A stretch of DNA of 64,000 bases from an uncultured cyanobacterium (GTDB lineage: Bacteria > Cyanobacteriota > Cyanobacteriia > Cyanobacteriales > Nostocaceae), in the NCBI GenBank assembly GCA_903848645.1, contig CAINGU010000020.1, forward strand, positions 1 through 64,000, written 5' to 3'. A program made the translations under genes and the position numbers. Under the pieces are notes generated by a model. That model was not told where the DNA came from and ran no database searches. It saw only the letters and a list, made by a program, of their open reading frames with translations. Positions 8,723-31,219 of the stretch are shown here, one piece after another. Each line of letters opens with the position of its first letter. The first letter of the stretch is position 1.

Positions 8723-9841
8723 ATGAATCCAGGAATTGACCTCCAAGGAACTTTTATTCAATCTGTCAAGGACTTAGGCGTACCTCCAGGAGCAGCCAAA
8801 GCCCTATGGATGCCATTACCAATGGTATTGATGCTGATTGGGGCTACAGTAGGCGTACTAGTTGCCACATGGCTAGAACGGAAAATTTCTGCGGCGGCAC
8901 AGCAACGGATTGGTCCTGAATATCAAGGGCCTTTTGGATTGTTAGTGCCTGTGGCAGATGGTCTGAAGCTGGTATTTAAAGAAGATATCATCCCAGCTAA
9001 AGCAGATCCTTGGCTATTTACCATTGGTCCAATTATTGTCGTTTTACCAGTATTTCTGTCTTATTTAATTGTGCCATTTGGACAGAATATCATCATTGCT
9101 AACGTCGGCATGGGCGTATTCTTATGGATTGCATTATCCAGCATTCAGCCCATTGGTTTATTAATGGCAGGCTATGCCTCTAATAATAAATACGCCTTGT
9201 TGGGAGGTTTACGGGCAGCAGCGCAGTCCATCAGTTATGAAATTCCCTTAGCATTGAGTGTACTAGCGATCGCCATGATGTCCAACAGTCTTAGCACCGT
9301 TGACATCGTGAATCAGCAATCTAATTTTGGCATTTTAGGCTGGAACATTTGGCGACAACCATTAGGTTTTATGATCTTTTGGATAGCCGCCCTAGCAGAA
9401 TGTGAACGCCTACCCTTCGACTTACCAGAAGCAGAAGAAGAACTAGTAGCAGGGTATCAAACCGAATATTCAGGGATGAAATTCGCCCTCTTTTACCTCA
9501 GTTCCTACATCAACCTGGTACTTTCTGCCTTATTAGTAGCAATTTTGTACCTTGGTGGTTGGCATTGTCCCATACCCCTTGACATGATCACTGGTTGGTT
9601 AGGAGTCAGTGAAAGTGACCCAGCAATTCAGGTGGTAACAGCGGTTACAGGTATTACCATGACCGTAATTAAAGCCTACCTACTCGTATTTCTGGCCATT
9701 CTCATTCGTTGGACAGTACCACGGGTAAGGATTGACCAATTGCTAGACTTAGGATGGAAATTCCTCTTACCAATAGGCTTGGTAAATCTTCTATTAACCG
9801 CAGCCTTCAAACTAGCCTTTCCCTTCGCATTCGGTGGGTAA
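8723..9841 (+). CDS. ndhA: NDH-1 subunit NdhA (NuoH-like)
   Basis: Membrane subunit of the thylakoid NDH-1 complex, which takes electrons from reduced ferredoxin for respiration and cyclic flow around photosystem I. The 372-residue protein has about eight hydrophobic segments. Hallmark blocks include [21 protein letters not shown] near the start, [10 protein letters not shown], and the loop [21 protein letters not shown] that lies near the quinone site. It is the first gene of ndhA-ndhI-ndhG-ndhE. Confidence 0.97.
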
Positions 9842-9938: not shown

Positions 9939-10523
9939 ATGTTAAAGTTCCTCAAACAAGTTGGTGATTACGCCAAAGAAGCAATACAAGCAGGTCGTTA
10001 CATAGGTCAAGGATTAGCCGTCACCTTTGACCACATGAGCCGGCGACCCGTTACCGTCCAATATCCCTACGAAAAATTAATTCCTGGTGAAAGATTTCGC
10101 GGGCGCATTCACTATGAATTTGACAAGTGTATTGCTTGTGAAGTTTGTGTACGCGTATGTCCCATTAATCTTCCTGTAGTTGACTGGGAAATGGACAAAG
10201 GCACGAAAAAGAAAAAGCTCAAACACTACAGTATTGATTTTGGAGTTTGTATCTTCTGCGGTAACTGTGTGGAATACTGTCCCACCAACTGTTTATCCAT
10301 GACAGAAGAATACGAACTAGCTACTTATGATCGCCATGAACTTAATTACGATAGCGTAGCTCTGGGACGTTTGCCCTATAAAGTCACAAATGATCCAATG
10401 GTGACACCATTGAGGGAACTTGTTTACCTACCTAAAGGCGTAATGGACCCCCACGGAGTACCTGCCGATGCCCCCCGCGCTGGTTCTCGTCCAGAAGACC
10501 TAGTAGAAAGTGGTAATGGGTAA
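9939..10523 (+). CDS. ndhI: NDH-1 subunit NdhI (2x[4Fe-4S])
   Basis: A 194-residue peripheral-arm subunit of NDH-1 with two ferredoxin-like cluster motifs, [12 protein letters not shown] and [12 protein letters not shown], binding two [4Fe-4S] clusters that pass electrons toward quinone. The N-terminal helix ([16 protein letters not shown]) is typical of the cyanobacterial and plastid protein. It sits 97 bp after ndhA, separated by heptamer repeats, and continues the operon. Confidence 0.97.
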
Positions 10524-27705: not shown

Positions 27706-27733
27706 GGGGCAACCACGGGGGGATTGCCCCTAC
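27706..27733 (-). repeat. REP-like palindrome, copy a
   Basis: A 28-bp element reading GTAGGGGCAAT and then GTGGTTGCCCC on the minus strand; GGGGCAA and TTGCCCC form the stem. Its TAG is the stop codon of the adjacent RAYT gene. Confidence 0.9.
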
Positions 27734-28248
27734 GTGGGGAAATTTTCGGGGTTGTTGGGATGAAGGGTGTCAACATCCCATAATATTGGATTATCTCTTA
27801 TATATTCTCGTAAGCGATCGCATGATTTTTCGTTACGAATAATGTGTTCATGATAATTGCGTTGCCATAGTCTCTTTTCAAAAGCTGGCCATTCTTTTTC
27901 ATAAACACCATGACGATATCTAGCAGTGGTTAAAGATTTAAACCGATGAACTACATCTGGTAATTTCATGGAACAATTAGGTTCAAGGATAATAATACCA
28001 TGAATATGATTAGGCATTAAAACGAAAGCATCAATATCAATTCCTTGGTAATGTGTAGGAATTTCATCCCAAACAATTTGTACCATTTCTCCTGCGGGTG
28101 AAGGGTACATAATACCTTCTTGAATATTACCAAGGAGCGATCGCCTTTGATTAATACAAATAGTCACAAAATACGCCCCTGCCTGAGAATAATCATATCC
28201 TTTCAGACGAATAGAACGGCGACGATGAATATCAGGATTATACGCCAT
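27730..28248 (-). CDS. REP-associated tyrosine transposase (RAYT)
   Basis: A 172-residue Y1 HUH-type nuclease. The HxH metal motif is MPNHIHGIII near residues 87-96, and the catalytic tyrosine lies in RNYHEHIIRNEKSCDRLREYI. These are hallmarks of the REP-associated branch of IS200/IS605 transposases, which act on short palindromic repeats. I start it at the ATG at 28248 (MAYNPDIHRRRSIRLKG); a TTG at 28275 lies inside the flanking repeat. The gene is flanked on both sides by inverted copies of one palindrome (27706-27733 and 28266-28293), its likely substrate. It appears intact. Confidence 0.9.
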   Translation of the reverse strand: MAYNPDIHRRRSIRLKGYDYSQAGAYFVTICINQRRSLLGNIQEGIMYPSPAGEMVQIVWDEIPTHYQGIDIDAFVLMPNHIHGIIILEPNCSMKLPDVVHRFKSLTTARYRHGVYEKEWPAFEKRLWQRNYHEHIIRNEKSCDRLREYIRDNPILWDVDTLHPNNPENFPT

Positions 28249-28265
28249 AAAAACAAATAATATAC

Positions 28266-28293
28266 GTAGGGGCAATCCCCCCGTGGTTGCCCC
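28266..28293 (+). repeat. REP-like palindrome, copy b
   Basis: Identical in sequence to copy a but in opposite orientation, so a and b frame the transposase gene. A partial copy of the right half (TTGCCCCGATAATT) follows at 28306-28319. Confidence 0.9.
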
Positions 28294-28382
28294 GATAATT
28301 TGTGTTTGCCCCGATAATTATCGGATTAATAATCAATTCTACATGGGTTTTGATGTAATGCGATCGCCCAAATTCCCAATAT

Positions 28383-28410
28383 GTAGGGGCAATCCCCCCG
28401 TGGTTGCCCC
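28383..28410 (+). repeat. REP-like palindrome, copy c
   Basis: Same 28-bp element as copy b and in the same orientation, 90 bp further on, in DNA without a gene. Confidence 0.9.
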
Positions 28411-28568
28411 GATCATCATTGGTTACACCGATTTATATATGGGTTGTAATGCGATCGCCCCAATAATCAATTTATTGATAAATACAAATATCGGGTCAAC
28501 CAAATGATTACCACAAATATTAAGGTAATCGCGTGGTAATTATAAATATCGTGGCAATCACGGGGGAT

Positions 28569-28595
28569 GGGCAACCACGGGGGGTTTGCCCCTAC
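28569..28595 (-). repeat. REP-like palindrome, copy d
   Basis: A 27-bp variant (GTAGGGGCAAA on the minus strand, one G fewer at the far end). Its TAG at 28592-28594 is the stop codon of the 875-residue gene. Confidence 0.88.
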
Positions 28596-28699
28596 ACACA
28601 TACACGAAAACCGTAGATGAGGCTGTCGTTGCCCGCGAGATTGTAGTTGCGAAAGCCAGCAGCGCAATTATTAGTAACGTTGCACCAGCCACCACCACG
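28592..28699 (-). other. Candidate DGR variable region
   Basis: The last 36 codons of the preceding gene. Fixed positions (RGG, W, N, C, R, N, I, GFRV) match the frame seen in cyanobacterial DGR target proteins. Positions that are AAC in typical DGR templates read as TGC, GGC, TAC, CTC, GAC or AGC here, as expected from adenine-specific mutagenesis. No template repeat or reverse transcriptase is present in this window. Confidence 0.6.
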
Positions 28700-31219
28700 C
28701 AGTGACTTGTTGTTTTGAGATGTATTAGCATACGCCTTGCCATTTTTAGGTAAATCAGCAACATTACTTGTCCAGGAATCTGCACACCATTCCCACACAT
28801 TACCGTGCATATCCACTAAATGCCAAGGGTTAGTATGGGTATCCTCTTTTTCTTTCACAGAATGGGTTTGACTACCTGAATTATCTGTGTACCAAGCATG
28901 GTTTTTTAACTGGCTGTCATTGTCTCCAAACCAATATTTTGTGGTTGTACCAGCACGACAAGCATATTCCCATTGGGTTTCACTAGGGAGGGTAATTTTG
29001 ACGTTAATTCCCTGTTTGTTAAGATGTTCAGTCAGCTTTTGACAAAATTCCGTTGCCATGTTCCAATTGACGTTCTCAACTGGATGATTTTCTTTGCCAC
29101 TACCTGAAAAATGAGATGGGTTTGTACCCATGACAGCTTGATATTGTGCCTGGGTAACGGGATATTTACCCATGCGAAACTCAGAAAGATTTATAGTGTG
29201 TCCTCCTGCCATTGTTAATACCCCAGCACTAATCCAAACTAATTTTAATGTTTGATTATTAGGTAAAGGTAAAATCAAGGAACGAGGACGTTCTTCTTCC
29301 TCAACGCGTTTACGTGCTTCCTCTTCCTGACGACGGGTATCATTCCATTCCTTTTGCAAAGCATCCCGTTTATCGCTGGGATGTCCTAAAGTTACCGCTT
29401 GGTTATAGTTAGCTATAGCAATTTCATAGTTATTTAATTTTAGGTAAGTATCACCTCGTAAATCGTAAAATTCAGCCCTTTGAGGTTGGAGAGAAATAGC
29501 TTTATCTAAATCAGAAATAGCACTATTATATTCCTTGAATCCATAAAAAGCCTTAGCTCTTTGATAGTAAACATTTGCTTGAGGATTTAAAGAAATAGTC
29601 CGATCAAAATCAATCTTGGCTAGATCATAACGTGGTTCGTAGGGGCAATCCCCCCGTGGTTGCCCCGAAACCTCTCTAATTCCCTGTAAATGTTCAATAC
29701 CACGCTTAAAACATGATTTAGCAATATTAAGATAGTTGGTTACTCCTAAAACTTGTAAACAAGCATTGAAAGATTGGACAAAATTACTATCTTCAGGTAC
29801 AAGCATTTTACCAATGTCAATAATTGGATCAACACTATTATTAATATCTCGTTGTTTTAACCAAGTTTGCATAATTGCTTGTACTTGATTAGCAAAACCA
29901 TAACGTGAGGGAACAGACTGTAAAATTTTTGCCCAACCTAAACGCAATTCCACCATAACGGCGGGTTCAGTTTGCTCTAAACCATCAAATAGGGCATTAC
30001 AGTAGTCAATTACAGCTTTGGTTAAAGCTATACGTTCATCATCATCAAGATTAGCTTCATCAAATAAATCGGGCAATAATGTAGGCAAAAGGGGTAATTG
30101 CCGTTGGGGTGCATAAATTAAGAAATATTCATCTGTCACCATGCCTACATGAATAGAGTGTAAAACTTCCATATAGTGAGTGAAAGTTTCCCGACTGCGG
30201 CGACTAAATTCGGCTCTATCCAAGTCTGTTTGTATGGCTTTTCCTTGTTGTTGCCATTGTTGGAATAGGTTTTGAGAAATTTCGCTAATGGTATCTTGCC
30301 AACGCAGTTTTCTAACCACAGTTTCAAAGCGAGCATCATCAAAATCATTGTTCCAAAAACCGATGTTGATATTAAAAAATGATTCTTCTACTTCAGTTTC
30401 TAAAACCAGCACGGGAATAGAACGTAATTCACTAAATATTTGATTAACTGCTGACTCTGCACGACGGTTTTTTGTTACCCATTCTCCCGCCATAAATTTT
30501 ACTGGCCGTTGGTTGAGAGTATATTGTTTAAATAGTTCTCGTAAAGCACCAGAAAGGGTAGATTCCATCATGGGAAATTGACTCTGAGCGGTGCTATTTG
30601 GTAAAGGGTCGTAACGCAATACTGGGGGCGAAAAGAAGACTGTTAGGGGCATTTCTGGGCGGTTGTGGACTATTTCCAGAATGTCGTCAGCAACAGCAAA
30701 AAAGGGACTATTGTGATCTCTTCTAGTTTGTTTATCTCGTTGTCGGGTAATTTGCGCGTCAAGATAGCGAATTTCAATAGCAAATTGTTGATCTGTTTCA
30801 GTTTTCCATTTTTGAAAGGCAATATTATCAGTTTGGATGGCAATTTGTACTTCTGCTTTGAATTTTTCAATTGCTTGGGTAAATTCTCGTTGTTTTTCTG
30901 CTTCTAATACTTGGAATGCTTGCCGCATTTTTTCTTGTGTGAGCAAAGTTTCTACTTCCATAGCTTTAAGAGCAAGGCTAAATTCCTTATCTCCTTGATG
31001 TTCTTTAGCTCTGACACTTTGCCGCATCATTTCCATTTTGGCATCAAATTCCATGCGTTTAATTGCCAAATTTTGAGCGTCATTATCGCGTTTTTGAGCA
31101 AGTGCTAAAGATTGTGTTTGGGTAGTAATGATACGGGTTTTATTTAATGCCATTAATGTGGGAGCGATAGTCCCAGCTAATTTAGCAATACCACTGACTA
31201 TAGCACCGAGAATACTCAT
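28592..31219 (-). CDS. Coiled-coil / TPR / FGE-sulfatase-fold protein with DGR-like variable end
   Basis: An 875-residue protein. Residues 1-165 are a long charged coiled coil after a short hydrophobic start. Residues 170-500 are an unrecognised globular region. Residues about 530-615 hold two to three TPR motifs (AKAFYGFKEYNSAISDLDKAI). Residues 655-875 are the formylglycine-generating-enzyme (C-type-lectin-like) fold with FRMGKYPVTQAQYQ, LPSETQWEYACRAG and DMHGNVWEWCAD. The final segment (RGGGW at 841-845 to GFRV at 870-873) has the form of a DGR variable region: between 855 and 869, 12 of 15 codons end in C. A REP copy is translated in frame at about 516-525, and another supplies the stop. 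Probably a ligand-binding display protein; enzymatic activity is doubtful. Confidence 0.82.
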   Translation of the reverse strand: MSILGAIVSGIAKLAGTIAPTLMALNKTRIITTQTQSLALAQKRDNDAQNLAIKRMEFDAKMEMMRQSVRAKEHQGDKEFSLALKAMEVETLLTQEKMRQAFQVLEAEKQREFTQAIEKFKAEVQIAIQTDNIAFQKWKTETDQQFAIEIRYLDAQITRQRDKQTRRDHNSPFFAVADDILEIVHNRPEMPLTVFFSPPVLRYDPLPNSTAQSQFPMMESTLSGALRELFKQYTLNQRPVKFMAGEWVTKNRRAESAVNQIFSELRSIPVLVLETEVEESFFNINIGFWNNDFDDARFETVVRKLRWQDTISEISQNLFQQWQQQGKAIQTDLDRAEFSRRSRETFTHYMEVLHSIHVGMVTDEYFLIYAPQRQLPLLPTLLPDLFDEANLDDDERIALTKAVIDYCNALFDGLEQTEPAVMVELRLGWAKILQSVPSRYGFANQVQAIMQTWLKQRDINNSVDPIIDIGKMLVPEDSNFVQSFNACLQVLGVTNYLNIAKSCFKRGIEHLQGIREVSGQPRGDCPYEPRYDLAKIDFDRTISLNPQANVYYQRAKAFYGFKEYNSAISDLDKAISLQPQRAEFYDLRGDTYLKLNNYEIAIANYNQAVTLGHPSDKRDALQKEWNDTRRQEEEARKRVEEEERPRSLILPLPNNQTLKLVWISAGVLTMAGGHTINLSEFRMGKYPVTQAQYQAVMGTNPSHFSGSGKENHPVENVNWNMATEFCQKLTEHLNKQGINVKITLPSETQWEYACRAGTTTKYWFGDNDSQLKNHAWYTDNSGSQTHSVKEKEDTHTNPWHLVDMHGNVWEWCADSWTSNVADLPKNGKAYANTSQNNKSLRGGGWCNVTNNCAAGFRNYNLAGNDSLIYGFRVCV
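29639..29666 (+). repeat. REP-like palindrome, copy e (inside coding sequence)
   Basis: Identical to copies b and c but inside the 875-residue gene, which it keeps in frame. On the coding strand it is read as GQPRGDCPYE, just before the first TPR helix. Confidence 0.92.

Follow-up and report, generated by a model that had tools for sequence, protein, structure and literature searches.

A cyanobacterial FGE-domain gene that is probably an orphaned DGR target

We propose that an 875-residue protein of an uncultured cyanobacterium of the Nostocaceae, encoded at 28592..31219 on the minus strand of the 64,000-nucleotide stretch analyzed here (the window), is probably an orphaned DGR target, that is, a target whose DGR is missing from the genome. 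The end of the gene carries the signature of a DGR variable region (VR), no DGR-type reverse transcriptase (RT) or template was found in the assembly, and a scrap of a DGR RT lies elsewhere in the genome. The window comes from contig 20 of a 5.4 Mb draft in 119 contigs, with a completeness of 99.99%. Under our reading, the last surface loop of the protein's FGE domain would once have been overwritten by a DGR, whose template RNA would have been reverse-transcribed with errors at adenines. The error-bearing copy would then have replaced the 3′ end of the gene, turning AAC/AAT codons of the template into random NNC/NNT codons, and RT, Avd and template would since have been lost from the genome.

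The protein consists of an N-terminal part with no Pfam match, tetratricopeptide repeats (TPRs; residues 548–611, 29387..29578, minus strand; PF00515, PF13181 and PF07719), a charged linker and a C-terminal FGE-sulfatase/C-type-lectin display domain (residues 673–873, 28601..29203, minus strand). This last fold, which an earlier note on this DNA had suggested, is recognized by PF03781 at 121.8 bits, against a cut-off of 23.3. Its closest relative in the PDB is variable protein 1 of Treponema denticola (2y3c, E 8.1e-35), itself a DGR target, and the next solved relative follows only at E 1e-8; by both matches, the domain is akin to known DGR targets. The likeness to variable protein 1 is one of sequence, and an AlphaFold2 prediction of the full 875-residue protein from five sequences has a mean pLDDT of 36.7. 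The combination of TPRs with an FGE/C-type-lectin domain suggests a protein of sensor or signalling type, by analogy with what is known of the family (PMC7517822; PMC10907252).

Downstream of the target lies an IS200-like (Y1) transposase gene (27730..28275, minus strand; PF01797), and a closely similar transposase gene sits in the same place in the relatives G099 and G094, judging by eye from the ORFs of L106 and L107. REP-like palindromes (GGGGCAACCACGGGGGGATTGCCCC) occupy positions 28280–28592 between the target and the transposase gene, and a ten-base pattern taken from their start has 7 matches in the window. The neighbors in the ORF list are a peptidase-like and a GNAT-like gene, both named by eye, and a transposase gene.

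Codons 841–876 (28592–28699, minus strand) read RGGGWCNVTNNCAAGFRNYNLAGNDSLIYGFRVCV and then the stop. They contain the VR core of 24 codons (846–869; 72 nt, 28613..28684, minus strand), which lies between two conserved anchors. The 5′ anchor, LRGGGW (CTGCGTGGTGGTGGCTGG; 28685..28702, minus strand), matches the RGGSW anchor of cyanobacterial template repeats (TRs) and VRs. The 3′ anchor, GFRVCV plus stop (28592..28612, minus strand), is defined by codon alignment, in which the window has one codon fewer (GTA in most) than the five aligned orthologues. The location of the VR in the last codons, the RGGxW and GFRV anchors and the NNC codons are those of a DGR variable protein, and the VR reading frame is open. 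The earlier note had drawn attention to codons 855–869, of which 12 of 15 end in C, and the count proved to be unique among the 15-codon stretches of the 48 window ORFs compared (ATG-started, at least 150 aa, target gene included): C-ending codons make up 15% of codons 1–839 of the gene (where third bases that are pyrimidines number 454, 126 of them C), the count of 12 is reached nowhere else in the gene, and the other 47 ORFs reach at most 10. The same note had derived six codons from template AAC. TGC (846), TAC, CTC, GAC and AGC do stand at varying positions, but GGC (855, 863) does not. GGC at both positions and TGC at 852 are shared by each of the four close orthologues, and GCG-GGC occurs in two templates laid out like the window VR, so these codons are probably letters of the template itself.

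Searches of 145 family, 16 genus and 388 class genomes, together with one pattern scan of the genome_contigs collection, found seven FGE-ended carriers of the gene: the window genome, G099 (92% identity), G094 (86%), G137 (86% over residues 275–873, on two contigs), Kamptonema sp. UHCC 0994, Geminocystis sp. GBBB08 and G475 (78% over the first 640 residues, with an FGE tail). Several of these assemblies are drafts and two are MAGs; G475 is in 10 contigs. The gene is delimited by its ORF, its Pfam matches and four aligned orthologues (92, 86, 77 and 71% identity). The N-terminal part also occurs with no FGE match in Planktothricoides sp. SR001 and in G446, where its contig is just 4.5 kb long; a viral-contig scan with this part found no relative. 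In Planktothricoides (L116, 7995–10524) the same N-terminal module and TPRs, spread over two ORFs, are followed by a GUN4 end in place of FGE, a swap of the C-terminal domain.

A codon alignment of six FGE-ended copies shows the loop between RGGxW and GFRV rewritten, with the third bases of NNC/NNT codons mostly kept. Among four of them (window, G099, G094 and G137, leaving out the more distant L114 and L115), 37 of the 72 VR columns vary, 17, 16 and 4 of them at codon positions 1, 2 and 3, as against 22, 21 and 48 in the FGE flank (168 codons) and 52, 31 and 106 in residues 275–672 (379 codons; begun at residue 275, one orthologue being split). For third versus first-plus-second positions in VR and flank, Fisher's test gives p 8e-6. 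Adenine is among the states in 29 of the 37 variable VR columns, compared with 157 of 280 elsewhere (p 0.012); 8 of the 37 show no A and 4 are third positions. In addition, we compared the VR with 19 templates of other DGRs, hand-chosen from 44 candidates by leaving out near-duplicates, other lengths and A-poor rows. They have 28 mostly-A columns, 23 of which are variable in the window family, and 14 of the other 44 columns vary; put differently, 23 of 37 variable but 5 of 35 invariant VR columns are adenine columns of the templates (p 3e-5, or p 0.011 with codon positions 1 and 2 only). These p-values are guides only, since columns depend on one another and the four sequences share descent. 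Among the copies, variation falls mostly on adenine-derived sites at codon positions 1 and 2; the A-specificity of the window VR is inferred from the orthologues, no cognate template having been seen. With the relation to 2y3c, this pattern backs the proposal of the earlier note that the C-terminus is a DGR-type VR on an FGE/C-type-lectin domain.

The window genome has five RVT_1 matches, on contigs 48, 50, 93 and 100 (two) and none on contig 20, in keeping with the earlier statement that the window holds neither an RT nor a template repeat. Three are group II-type RTs (TIGR04416, one above and two just below the cut-off). The RT at 67182–67802 of contig 50 is retron-type (best PADLOC match RT-Protease XI, followed closely by RT-Toprim I-C and RT-TIR XII), that at 72433–72927 of contig 48 is UG14/DRT-type by its best PADLOC match, and NCBIfam concurs with both calls below cut-off. 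As candidates for a DGR RT, these two were rejected on their best family matches in PADLOC and NCBIfam, which lie elsewhere. None of the five matches of this 99.99%-complete draft is thus of DGR type, and no complete DGR was found. The search for a DGR RT in the genome, named beforehand as the refuting test of the earlier proposal of a remote target served in trans, came out empty as far as the draft assembly shows, and the proposal was not borne out.

Two query proteins gave the same picture. Of the 145 family genomes, 75 gave BPP-1 Brt a match at E 1e-6, and identity and ORF length mark many of these matches as RTs of other types; its single match in the window genome (1.8e-9) is a group II-type RT on contig 100, and it had no match in G099 or G137. 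The DGR RT of the congener G027 retrieved intact DGR RTs (E 1.9e-153 or better) from 5 of 16 genus genomes and from Planktothricoides, and from none of the seven FGE-ended carriers. Best matches in the carriers were at 5.7e-12 in the window genome, 1.5e-8 in G099, 3.1e-11 in G094, 2.9e-12 in Kamptonema, 1.4e-13 in Geminocystis and 4.2e-13 in G475, with none in G137; the listed matches are 23–34% identical, the scrap described below excepted. Zero in seven proves little by itself, because the rate of 5/16 in the genus gives (11/16)^7, or about 0.07.

No template repeat aligning to 28592–28699 was found either. By blastn, the VR DNA matched itself in its own genome and otherwise only stretches of 16–27 nt. 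One of 21 nt on contig 40 was rejected as a template, being the end of a 458-residue, solute-binding-protein-like ORF on the other strand. A model built from 22 VR and TR sequences had one match in the window genome, the VR itself (150 of 1664 first-look candidates scored). Avd had no match within the window or within 20 kb of contig 69.

The approach does see DGRs of the window clade where they are present, because, in 23 VR–TR pairs from relatives and plasmids with DGRs, changes fell on 322 of 668 adenines of the template and on 2 of its 1102 remaining bases (pairs of equal length only, 19 of 27 loci named, with the most A-rich hit per locus taken as TR). The cores of these control pairs start 7 nt further upstream for many loci, and comparison with the window-family VRs reached two templates only. 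The comparison was repeated with the 35 of 44 candidates of equal length, a set in which one genome can stand behind several loci (L101, L119 and L139, for example) and a few candidates are A-poor VRs (for example, L091 and L141). A cognate TR with adenine-only differences was not among these 35 same-length foreign candidates, the closest of which has 12 mismatches to the window VR over 41 non-A positions. Among these candidates, only the templates of G151 and G005 have the GCG-GGC of the window VR, and neither fits. Plasmid pANA02 of Anabaena sp. 90 (L135, 5376–9187) carries an apparently complete DGR with two FGE targets, Avd, an RT 95.7% identical to that of G027, and a TR at 9088–9187; one of its VRs seems to have 1 nt deleted relative to the TR. 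The degraded, RT-only cassette of Anabaena sp. 90 mentioned in PMC7517822 is perhaps another copy.

What the window genome does contain is a scrap of a DGR RT at 10361–10486 of contig 69 (L131), matching DGR RT residues 95–136. Over nucleotides 16–126 (111 nt) it shares 75.7% identity with the RT gene of G151 (E 3e-18), and its first 25 nt, including an in-frame TGA, are a dispersed repeat that recurs elsewhere on the contig. G151 is also the closest at the protein level (66.7% over 42 residues, among eight rows of DGR RTs, G027 twice). The scrap lies 165 nt after a tRNA-Cys gene, and in G151 an intact DGR follows that tRNA-Cys on the corresponding side, likewise oriented and with the same flanking gene. 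The island that follows tRNA-Cys in G151 comprises Trypco1, trypsin-VMAP and AAA genes, an 890-residue FGE protein, Avd, RT and TR. Its RT lies about 7 kb from the tRNA-Cys, and its outer border is unseen, the far flank not being on the same contig stretch. FGE/trypsin islands are present at this tRNA-Cys in the congeners G027 and G114; the site is empty in G099, where 116 nt separate tRNA-Cys from the next gene. Because of the scrap, the island of G151 and the short gap of G099, the window lineage probably once held a DGR at tRNA-Cys and lost it. The shortness of the scrap limits its weight as a DGR relic. That the DGR behind it served the window gene is a guess, and it may have been a different DGR.

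Partial DGRs were also seen elsewhere. G145, in which no intact DGR RT was found, has a C-terminal DGR RT fragment (residues 308–347; contig 37, 18354–18476). In Geminocystis sp. GBBB08 (L115, 1125–4235) an avd-like gene, 61% identical to avd of G027, comes immediately after the target. Its occurrence in a genome where no DGR RT was found perhaps reflects another kind of half-lost DGR, or perhaps a gap in a MAG.

The distribution of changes within the VR gives some indication of timing. Between window and G099, the 5′ half of the VR has 5 differing sites and the 3′ half 13, and outside the VR 15% of fourfold sites differ (46/298); both have TGC at codon 846 and GTT at codon 848. As 3′-primed homing, known from BPP-1, predicts change toward the 3′ half of the VR, these sequences fit one or more 3′ rewritings after the two lineages split. 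The rewriting would then have covered the 3′ half of the loop or more, and taken place in one of the two lineages after that of the window parted from G099, the nearest sampled relative. Kamptonema and G475 have one common VR, with 1, 2 and 3 differences at codon positions 1, 2 and 3 over 21 codons (flank, 10, 9 and 14 over 183), which look like ordinary drift. G094 and G137 differ mainly in the 5′ half (7 versus 2), the opposite of the pattern that 3′-primed homing predicts.

It is unlikely that the gene is a living remote target, its loop still being rewritten in trans by a DGR on a plasmid or an unassembled stretch. Such a DGR might escape a 119-contig draft, the VR keeps an open frame, and DGRs do occur on plasmids in the group, such as pANA02 with its RT, Avd, TR and two VRs. 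Against this, the draft is 99.99% complete and yielded neither DGR RT nor TR, no DGR RT was found in any of the seven FGE-ended carriers, including G475 in only 10 contigs, and 72,556 plasmid and 50,697 phage records gave no hit to the VR DNA at E 0.01. Templates of congeners were rejected as the VR source by their non-A mismatches (14/41 for G027, 16/47 for G151), and the pANA02 template falls outside the best six of the 35 candidates.

It is less likely still that homologous recombination shuffled the C-terminal segment among FGE-domain genes, with no DGR acting on the gene itself. Recombination has moved the FGE segment as well, because the FGE flanks of G094 and G137 (4.0% divergent) are too alike for their N-terminal parts (12.4%). 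Moreover, G099, G137, G094 and G154, all genomes with no DGR RT, each hold 3 to 5 further VR-like FGE tails by the 22-sequence model. The window genome shows no second VR-like sequence under that model, the TGC..GGC..GCGGGC letters of its VR are unlike those of the paralogues, and recombination alone would not keep third bases while varying the first two. Several of the tails (L169–L183) look like NNC-rich former VRs. Sixteen stretches around the model's hits in these four genomes were read and rejected as templates, because each closes an open frame with an FGE-type motif; the Kamptonema orthologue itself is among them, as L184. The least probable reading is ordinary point mutation under strong diversifying selection on the binding loop. 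Such selection could by itself vary codon positions 1 and 2 of a surface loop, but third bases are pyrimidines in 21–23 of the 24 VR codons of each of the four copies, transversions dominate the VR (12 of 18 changes between window and G099, versus 17 of 48 in the flank), and the variable columns coincide with the adenine columns of other DGRs' templates.

For the orphaned target that we favor, the DGR is no longer found in the genome, and the loop is therefore probably frozen, a fixed binding surface that drifts by ordinary mutation and no longer diversifies. A doubtful extension would be that visiting mobile DGRs, on plasmids or in tRNA-Cys islands, rewrite resident chromosomal targets and then vanish. 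Should that improbable scheme apply, each lineage would keep one sampled, fixed loop, and the protein family would be a trans-only target with no travelling mutator.

Remote DGR targets in cyanobacteria are not unprecedented. PMC7517822 (2020) describes such targets, which TR identity links to a DGR within their own genome, and reports plasmid-borne DGRs in Anabaena sp. 90 and Fischerella. Like the window gene, those targets have a C-terminal CLec module, a VR near the 3′ end and often a signalling-type N-terminus, and they are dispersed away from the RT, some with IS200/IS605 transposases nearby. Unlike them, the window gene sits in a genome where neither DGR RT nor TR was found, and the six other carriers likewise yielded no DGR RT. 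The same paper presents all3226 of Nostoc sp. PCC 7120, which has remnant TR–VR homology and neither an RT gene nor an RT pseudogene close by; two DGRs persist in PCC 7120, whereas none was found in the window genome. The window gene is thus a well-documented further case, remnant cyanobacterial targets being already in PMC7517822, and in the DGR literature consulted this gene family was not described as an orphaned target. Dore et al. (2024; PMC10907252) treat clade 5E cyanobacterial DGRs with VMAP/Trypco ternary systems, which the tRNA-Cys DGR of G151 resembles in lying beside Trypco1, trypsin-VMAP and AAA genes; the window gene, with its peptidase-like, GNAT-like and transposase neighbors, does not.

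If our reading is correct, this family would offer a DGR target that has outlived its mutator, with orthologues at several distances by which the loss could be timed. DGR surveys anchored on the RT would miss orphaned targets of this kind, and PMC8144416 says of its own short-contig survey that it would not detect remote targets. Genomes that lack a DGR RT can, as seen here, hold several VR-like tails.
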